DNA from: Thermoproteota archaeon
Lineage (GTDB): Archaea; Korarchaeota; Korarchaeia; Korarchaeales; Korarchaeaceae
Length of the DNA stretch: 64,000 nt
Direction: 5' to 3'
Assembly (NCBI GenBank): GCA_026986575.1
Contig: JALSOH010000004.1
Span: 598,693-662,692, forward strand
In this document: positions 46,922 to 55,741 of the stretch, in pieces
How the letters are laid out: each line of letters starts with the position of its first letter
How positions within the stretch are numbered: position 1 is the first letter of the stretch
Made by a program: the position numbers and the translations under genes
The notes under the pieces: generated by a model
Databases searched by the model: none
What the model saw: only the letters and a program-made list of their open reading frames with translations
What the model was told of the DNA's origin: nothing

Positions 46922-48874
46922 ATGAGGAAGATGTTCTGGTTACCGATCCTGTCCATAGCCGCGCTAACATTGGCGTTTGCTTTACTGCCAGTGCTAGCCA
47001 ATCCAAGCGGAGTGGGTTTCGGAGACGCTCAGAGCGTTGAGGCAACCGCACAAGAAGCTTTAGCCAAGGTGAGTCCGGAAACGAAAGCCTGTTTGAATTG
47101 CCACGCGGACCCCAACACGGTCAAGATGCAGATCCCGTATTACGACTGGTTGAGGAGCAAACACGCATGGCATACTCCAGATGAGCTGGAAGCTTATTAC
47201 AGGGATATCTTTGGGGAGGACGCCCACCTGGCCAGTAAGTTCAAGGGATATCCTTACGTGGTTGGTTGCTATGAATGCCATGGTATGTTCGCCGATTCTG
47301 ATAGGGCTGATGTCGTAGAACATAACGGCTTCAAGATAGTCGTTGATGTAACCCCGAAAGACTGTCAACAGTGTCACTACAAAGAGACCAAAGAAATGAG
47401 TTGGAGCAAGCATTCTTTCGCTGCTCTGAATGCAAATCTCAAGCCTTGGTATACCCTAGTGCTTCAAAAGACTTACGGGGACGCTGCCAAAGCCGAATAT
47501 GATAAGATTTTCAAAGATGTGGTCGAATGGCCCTTCTACAAGAAGTATGCTGAGGACTTCTACAATGGAGATGAGAAAGCTGTAAACGCCAGTAAATACT
47601 ACTTCTACGGGGATAAGTTCAAATTCCTCACAGGACTTTACCCGTCCCACGGCATGCTGACCCATGCGGTCACCAATTTTACCGCTAACTACTTAGGAGT
47701 AGATTACCACTTCATAATGGAGCATCCCAAGTACAACAACAGCTACGTTTACCTAGCATGTATGGAGTGTCATGGTAGTGCTGTTCTCCCAGCCAAGCCC
47801 AATGCGATAGTAGGTCTCGATGCACCATATGCCAAGGTATATGGAACTCCCGATATGGTGCTGCTTGGATGGCCTAACAATGGGGCCGGCAGGATAAATC
47901 CCGATGGAAGTTTGGGAAGCTGTGCTACGTGTCACACCAGACATACTTTCAGCATCTCCGAGGCGAGGAAGCCCCATACTTGTGGTCAGTGTCATTTAGG
48001 GTACGATCATCCACAGATAGAGATATATGAGGAGAGCAAACACGGAAACATCTACGACTCGGAAGGAGAGGAATGGAATTGGAGTAACCTGCCATGGAGA
48101 CCAGGAATAGACTTCAGAGCCCCGACATGCGCTACCTGTCACATGAGCCACTTGGTCGATAAGAATGGTAAGGTGATAGTAGCAGGTACTCACGACTTAG
48201 GAGCTAGGCTGACTTGGGAAATTCAGGCCAAATGGAGCTTTGGACAGACTTATTATCCAGATCCATTGAACTCCGGCTTCGCGAAGAAGAGACCGGACTG
48301 GAAGAATCCACTTACAATGGGTAATGCTGCTCTCTCATCCCCTGATAATCCGAGAGGAAGGATGATGAGTGTATGCAAGACATGCCACTCAAGCGACTGG
48401 GTATACTCCTACTTCACATGGTACGACAGTGTGAACATGGATTATAACATAACGTGGAACTACGCTCTCTCATTACTCAAGAAGGCCTATAAAGAGGGCA
48501 TCCAAGTTAACAGAGCCGGGGAAATAATAATGAACAGGAAAGCCCTTCCGGGAGATCTGGACGAGTACATGGAGATAATGACCTACTACATATGGCACCA
48601 CGAGGGTCGGAGGTGGAGGATGGGAGCCTCCATGATGGGCCCCGACTACACACACTGGCTCGGAATAGTCGACACGGTCATGGATAAGCTGGGAAGAATG
48701 ACTACTTACTATGAGACACAGCTCAAGATGAAACAGCTCGAGAGTAAGATAGAGAAGATGTCAGGGACTGGAATAGGCACAGGAGTTAACATGTTCACCT
48801 TCATAGCTACCGTGCTCTCACTAGTTGCGATAGTCTTAGTCCTCATCGACATCTTGGTAAGGAGAAGGAAGTAA
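46922..48874 (+). CDS. octaheme cytochrome c of the HAO family, membrane-anchored
   Basis: A 650-residue secreted cytochrome with eight CxxCH heme sites: CLNCH, CYECH, CQQCH, CMECH, CATCH, CGQCH, CATCH and CKTCH. The segment HTCGQCHLGYDHPQIEIYEESKHG is the hallmark of hydroxylamine-oxidoreductase-type octahemes. A signal helix (FWLPILSIAALTLAFALLPVLA) and a C-terminal anchor (FTFIATVLSLVAIVLVLIDIL) place it outside, tied to the membrane. A late DYTHW segment contains a Tyr in the region where HAO has its heme-crosslinking Tyr, but equivalence is unproven. It may oxidise hydroxylamine or reduce nitrite or hydroxylamine; the direction cannot be read. The Ccm genes follow directly. Confidence 0.88.
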   Translation: MRKMFWLPILSIAALTLAFALLPVLANPSGVGFGDAQSVEATAQEALAKVSPETKACLNCHADPNTVKMQIPYYDWLRSKHAWHTPDELEAYYRDIFGEDAHLASKFKGYPYVVGCYECHGMFADSDRADVVEHNGFKIVVDVTPKDCQQCHYKETKEMSWSKHSFAALNANLKPWYTLVLQKTYGDAAKAEYDKIFKDVVEWPFYKKYAEDFYNGDEKAVNASKYYFYGDKFKFLTGLYPSHGMLTHAVTNFTANYLGVDYHFIMEHPKYNNSYVYLACMECHGSAVLPAKPNAIVGLDAPYAKVYGTPDMVLLGWPNNGAGRINPDGSLGSCATCHTRHTFSISEARKPHTCGQCHLGYDHPQIEIYEESKHGNIYDSEGEEWNWSNLPWRPGIDFRAPTCATCHMSHLVDKNGKVIVAGTHDLGARLTWEIQAKWSFGQTYYPDPLNSGFAKKRPDWKNPLTMGNAALSSPDNPRGRMMSVCKTCHSSDWVYSYFTWYDSVNMDYNITWNYALSLLKKAYKEGIQVNRAGEIIMNRKALPGDLDEYMEIMTYYIWHHEGRRWRMGASMMGPDYTHWLGIVDTVMDKLGRMTTYYETQLKMKQLESKIEKMSGTGIGTGVNMFTFIATVLSLVAIVLVLIDILVRRRK

Positions 48875-48939
48875 GTGAGAATGAGCTAACTTCCCAACCA
48901 AACATTATTTTTTATTTCGTCGCACGAGGGGTCTCCTCA

Positions 48940-55700: not shown

Positions 55701-55741
55701 AGGGATCTCCCAGCCCTGTAAAGGGTCCAGAGAGTCAGTAA
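52730..55741 (+). CDS. ccmF: CcmF heme lyase, extended form
   Basis: About 1003 residues. The N-terminal 500 residues carry the CcmF core: [25 protein letters not shown] with GGGSLFLL, the WWD-type [27 protein letters not shown], and later His-bearing helices. CcmF is the lyase joining heme to apocytochrome. The region 500-970 is a large external domain, much longer than in bacterial CcmF and rich in N-glycosylation sequons. ATG 52730 follows GGGGTGA; the frame opens earlier at 52676. The last 36 residues are low-complexity (Gly, Pro, Glu) and lie antisense to the next gene. Confidence 0.85.
   Translation: [1003 protein letters not shown]

Follow-up and report, generated by a model that had tools for sequence, protein, structure and literature searches.

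The locus at 46922–55741 of the window, by which we mean the whole 64,000-nucleotide stretch of Korarchaeaceae DNA analysed here, is more ordinary than the initial annotation proposed: it consists of a non-P460 octaheme cytochrome of the HAO family beside a standard archaeal System I. On balance, we think that the octaheme is an extracytoplasmic, anchored reductase, for which nitrite, hydroxylamine or NO would be the likeliest substrates, and that it receives its hemes from the single archaeal System I of the genome.

The open reading frames of the locus, with their coordinates and strand, agree with those annotated before, and Pfam, NCBIfam and motif alignment bear out the gene order of octaheme, ccmC-E-A-B, thioredoxin-CcdA and ccmF (Table 1). 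Intergenic distances range from a 17-base overlap between ccmA and ccmB to a 65-base gap; the gap had been described correctly, whereas the largest overlap had been put at four bases. The ccmF gene likely starts at ATG 52730 and not at GTG 52676, since stop codons in most relatives lie inside a match that begins earlier, and since aligned homologues start at the MHYTG segment. Recoding of the stop codons within the relatives' ccmF matches was set aside because the homologues start at this segment; an over-early query start codon would explain most of these stops.

Table 1 Genes of the octaheme and cytochrome c maturation locus, in window coordinates.
Feature	Position	Strand	Characteristics
HAO-family octaheme c-type cytochrome (OCC)	46922..48874	+	650 aa, signal sequence, C-terminal membrane anchor
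ccmC, heme handling permease	48940..49986	+	NCBIfam match; WGSPWNWDPRET motif
ccmE, archaeal type	49983..50396	+	N-terminal TM; heme site GCHKAY (CxxxY) near C-terminus; assigned from position and invariant motif
ccmA, ABC ATPase	50397..51026	+	NCBIfam TIGR01189, 132.3 bits against a cut-off of 131.6
ccmB, ABC permease	51010..51654	+	Pfam match
Thioredoxin (CSSC) fused to CcdA-like membrane domain, CcmG-CcdA equivalent	51658..52725	+	Pfam thioredoxin
ccmF heme lyase	52730..55741	+	1003 aa; NCBIfam heme lyase CcmF/NrfE; outer domain at about residues 479–940

Two neighbouring genes lie on the minus strand. The 3′ end of a presenilin-like archaeal protease gene (window 55631–56398) shares 111 bases with the end of ccmF, an arrangement that is kept in genus mates, and an ATPase gene (window 43239–44558) matches the PADLOC model PDC-S01 (E 3e-95) and has a fragmented homologue in two of the compared genomes (G017 and G021).

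Motif count and hydrophobicity confirm the eight CxxCH motifs, the signal sequence and the C-terminal anchor reported earlier for the 650-residue octaheme protein. Of the 65 DNA matches coding for CxxCH in the 1.9-Mb genome, eight lie within 1.3 kb at this gene, a clustering that is not due to chance. The hydrophobic stretches comprise residues 7–25 at the N-terminus and residues 628–646, a C-terminal helix ending in RRRK, and together they predict that the bulk of the protein should lie outside the membrane. Pfam matches the protein to Multi-haem_cyto, and a profile search against solved structures gave 4qo5 from Ignicoccus hospitalis as the best match (E 2e-131), with the HAO structures at E 2e-48. 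Foldseek ranking of an AlphaFold model (pTM 0.78) also placed 4qo5 first, followed by 6h5l, the reducing HAO-like protein of Kuenenia, by HAO (1fgj) and by hydrazine dehydrogenase (6hif), and returned no other fold besides HAO-family structures at E ≤ 0.001. Additionally, all eight CxxCH motifs align with the HAO rows as invariant columns, in HAO order.

In a tree of 54 rows, in which the program flagged long branches, the window octaheme and those of its genus mates form a clade (100/100) that is sister (100/99) to the octahemes of Pyrodictium, Acidilobaceae and other Desulfurococcales, and the rows resembling HAO or hydrazine dehydrogenase, together with the anammox rows, are separated from it at 100/100. 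Profile matches, heme-site alignment, tree and predicted fold all uphold the earlier assignment: the protein belongs to the HAO family and has the HAO fold, but it stands outside the HAO/hydrazine dehydrogenase branch. The sister octahemes of the Desulfurococcales (L044–L048) are about 42–48% identical to the window protein, and most of them likewise carry a C-terminal anchor. A 23-row clade (100/99) holds both the window octaheme and 4qo5, in different subclades joined by a weak fork (77/64) with flagged long branches. By its title, a 2016 report by Parey is said to describe 4qo5 as an archaeal membrane-associated octaheme cytochrome; apart from its subclade, it differs from the window protein in having QDWTTF for PDYTHW and DVP for DHP. 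In a genome of the Planctomycetota phylum (G390, stretch L139), we also observed an HAO match that reaches 69% identity with the Nitrosomonas enzyme, either a transfer or a contaminating contig.

Conservation within the genus is uneven, with the octaheme 81% identical to that of one genus mate (G018) as against 53–61% for the ccm genes, while fourfold sites are equally saturated; this points to strong purifying selection on the octaheme. That the octaheme had recently been transferred between genus mates, considered as a cause of the higher identity, was rejected because its fourfold sites are as saturated as those of the ccm genes and of HerA.

An archaeal variant of System I was reportedly described by Allen in 2006, and the maturation genes of the window show its traits. 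Without a Pfam or NCBIfam match, the 137-residue ORF behind ccmC is identified as an archaeal-type CcmE by its position in the run and by a GCHxxY motif whose Cys and Tyr are invariant in eight homologues, CxxxY standing in place of HxxxY as is characteristic of the archaeal variant; this CcmE motif has been described before (PMC4600277). Tryptophan-rich motifs are present in CcmC (WGSPWNWDPRET) and in CcmF (11 residues), and the membrane part of the thioredoxin fusion, which has no library match, is called CcdA-like from its membrane topology and conserved cysteines. No match to CcmH (PF03918) was obtained at E 0.1 genome-wide, with positive controls, and neither CcmD, which is too small to exclude, nor CcmI was seen within the operon. 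CcmD, G, H and I had all been listed as missing or replaced; this holds for CcmH across the genome, but CcmG is there, in the form of the thioredoxin domain that is joined to CcdA. The description of the system as condensed is likewise correct, but an archaeal state lacking CcmD, H and I was already known (PMC9084895, PMC4429474), and CcmABCEF suffices in Methanosarcina (PMC9084895). Like the known variant (PMC9084895), the window has CcmA, B, C, E with CxxxY and F, lacks CcmH and includes thioredoxin and CcdA; it differs in that all genes lie in one operon, that the thioredoxin is fused to CcdA, and that CcmF, at about 1000 residues, is in one piece as opposed to the split CcmF of Methanosarcina.

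The single unusual structural feature of the system is its long CcmF. Proteins of about 1000 residues with a large outer domain are common to the octaheme-linked or split-Soret-linked relatives and to L046 and L047, and CcmF has 650 residues in a remote phylum member (G001) and 660 in the solved chain 6zmq; in the long form, the outer domain greatly exceeds that of these shorter proteins. The outer domain, about 460 residues long, has no CcmH-type Cys pair, and its AlphaFold model, built on a three-row alignment, is too poor to interpret (pLDDT 54) and gave no Foldseek match at E 0.001. We consider it unlikely that this domain replaces the apocytochrome handling of CcmH and CcmI, making CcmF a complete heme ligase by itself in these archaea.

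The genome of the window has one ccmC and one ccmF, together with at least two other c-type cytochromes, a hexaheme protein with a DOMON domain on contig C1 (L026:6464–7963) and a split-Soret diheme cytochrome on contig C9. In genus mates, the hexaheme protein is represented by its DOMON part alone, and two RNase HII-like genes on the minus strand (L026, 5080–5742 and 10941–11618) flank its stretch, as if a local duplication or insertion had occurred. The split-Soret gene adjoins a cytochrome b561-like gene (L027:2976–5104), a pairing also found at L038:11523–13167 and L039:12559–14281, and Pyrodictium delaneyi has a similar split-Soret/cytochrome b pair, Pyrde_1256/1257 (PMC8105010). Another arrangement was observed in the remote phylum member G001 (L040:2188–5039), where two tandem proteins with eight to nine hemes, weakly similar to the window octaheme, lie beside the 650-residue CcmF.

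These data bear on whether the ccm run is private to the octaheme, serving it only and travelling with it as a unit, as initially put forward. Among 16 genomes of the genus and 29 of the phylum, the linkage is real: the octaheme is present in seven of the 16, ccmC lies directly downstream of it in all seven, and in a Desulfurococcales archaeon (L046) ccmC-E-A-B-TrxCcdA-F stands beside the octaheme as its divergent neighbour. Contig ends interrupt the octaheme or the ccm run in two of the seven (G011 and G015). The octaheme and the run do, however, part company. One genome of the same genus (G012) and one of another (G008) have the whole ccm run and no octaheme, the place of which upstream of ccmC is taken by a split-Soret diheme gene together with a cytochrome b gene; in G018, the run is divided between two contigs, one with octaheme-ccmCEAB and the other with thioredoxin-CcdA-ccmF between HerA-like and presenilin-like homologues; and the octahemes of L044, L045 and L050 have no ccm genes in the stretch examined around each. 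A kit private to the octaheme is refuted by the runs without it in G012 and G008 and by the single ccmC and ccmF of a genome with at least two further c-type cytochromes, leaving the idea that both form one exclusive travelling unit hardly tenable, even though the linkage itself stands. The best reading of the single kit, the other cytochromes, the split-Soret gene in the octaheme's place and the split run of G018 is that the kit is a general one with different cytochromes as neighbours, and the ccm run very probably serves other cytochromes as well.

As to the direction of catalysis, we located Tyr467 of Nitrosomonas HAO, the P460 crosslink tyrosine, by counting along the 1fgj chain. Its counterpart in the window octaheme is Trp579 by alignment or His578 if anchored on the following glycine, and the alignment with HAO thus places no tyrosine at the crosslink site, as in 4qo5. 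Absence of this tyrosine has been tied to reductive enzymes, and histidine at the key site to a reductive state (PMC12758564), which makes a reductase, or an electron outlet, likelier than an oxidase. Also, between hemes 4 and 5 there is a conserved WPNxGxGRxNPDGSxG segment, which 45 of the 51 non-HAO rows share and all 20 HAO/anammox rows lack. The common fold, the eight heme sites and an Asp362-His363 pair adjoining the sixth CxxCH as in HAO would suit a hydroxylamine or hydrazine oxidase like those of nitrifiers and anammox bacteria; on sequence grounds we nevertheless regard such an activity as highly improbable, because the crosslink tyrosine of HAO and hydrazine dehydrogenase is missing and the octaheme falls outside their branch (100/100). 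The WPNxGxGRxNPDGS segment is a further difference, being absent from both enzymes. The retained Asp-His pair, the lost tyrosine and the tree together favour a reductase.

The octaheme of such a reductase would be tethered outside the cytoplasm by its C-terminal helix; electrons from the membrane pool would pass through seven electron-transfer hemes to a site at the fourth CxxCH, where a small substrate, likeliest nitrite, hydroxylamine or NO, would be reduced. During maturation, CcmAB and CcmC would load heme onto CcmE at its CxxxY motif, the thioredoxin-CcdA protein would keep the CxxCH cysteines reduced, and CcmF would ligate heme without CcmH or CcmI. The acceptor might instead be a non-nitrogen one, such as Fe(III) minerals or sulfur oxyanions, with the octaheme acting as electron outlet or reductase. 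In a Pyrodictium sp. (L044) and in L047, the octaheme gene is accompanied by genes for a tetraheme cytochrome, an Fe-S protein, an NrfD protein and a monoheme cytochrome, a grouping suggestive of a quinol-coupled module; this NrfD-type module adjoins some of the Desulfurococcales octahemes but is absent from the window locus. The L044 module equals the Pyrodictium delaneyi complex Pyrde_0485–0496 in composition, a match not made by sequence, and this complex contains sulfur-reductase-like subunits and an octaheme, Pyrde_0496, that was observed in cells grown on nitrate as well as in cells grown on ferrihydrite (PMC8105010). Sulfur substrates have been proposed for a related branch (PMC9213671), and the window genome has sulfur-type genes, namely a homologue of SQR type III and an interrupted Psr/Phs-like enzyme; no nitrate reductase was recognised in it. 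However, Pyrde_0496 is not reported among the ferrihydrite-induced proteins (PMC8105010), and HAO-family enzymes of confirmed function act on nitrogen compounds (PMC9213671); a non-nitrogen acceptor seems possible, but we rate it below the reduction of a nitrogen compound. Downstream of the Desulfurococcales octahemes, we further noticed proteins of 727–865 residues (L045:6029–8260, L046:12180–14777 and L047:12351–14534), those of L045 and L047 having no Pfam match.

The proposal that the octaheme ends a chain from formate to nitrogen oxyanions found no support. The genes at window 416–6533 do encode a formate dehydrogenase, of the formate dehydrogenase-N type and with FdhE, but they lie about 40 kb from the octaheme locus and nothing links the two. 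The other molybdopterin enzymes of the genome are a 655-residue formate-dehydrogenase-like protein and the interrupted Psr/Phs-like enzyme, and because neither NarG nor NapA was recognised in the genome, the chain is only a guess. The single NrfD of the genome sits in a sulfur-type locus interrupted by stops (L164:4968–8689, contig C4, about 800967–804688), where the Psr/Phs-like molybdopterin enzyme, an Fe-S protein and NrfD contain stops or frame breaks. This locus, which adjoins the SQR type III homologue (selenoprotein subtype model), may be a pseudogene, an assembly error or a case of recoding.

An earlier survey found c-type cytochromes among archaea only in Cren- and Euryarchaeota (PMC4429474). 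With the present locus, a small archaeal phylum gains an octaheme lineage that is membrane-anchored and non-P460, as well as a compact archaeal System I. The ccm run with its alternating neighbour cytochromes offers a natural set for studying archaeal heme ligation without CcmH. If the octaheme is a reductase, this lineage, about whose electron acceptors little is known, would possess a terminal reductase.
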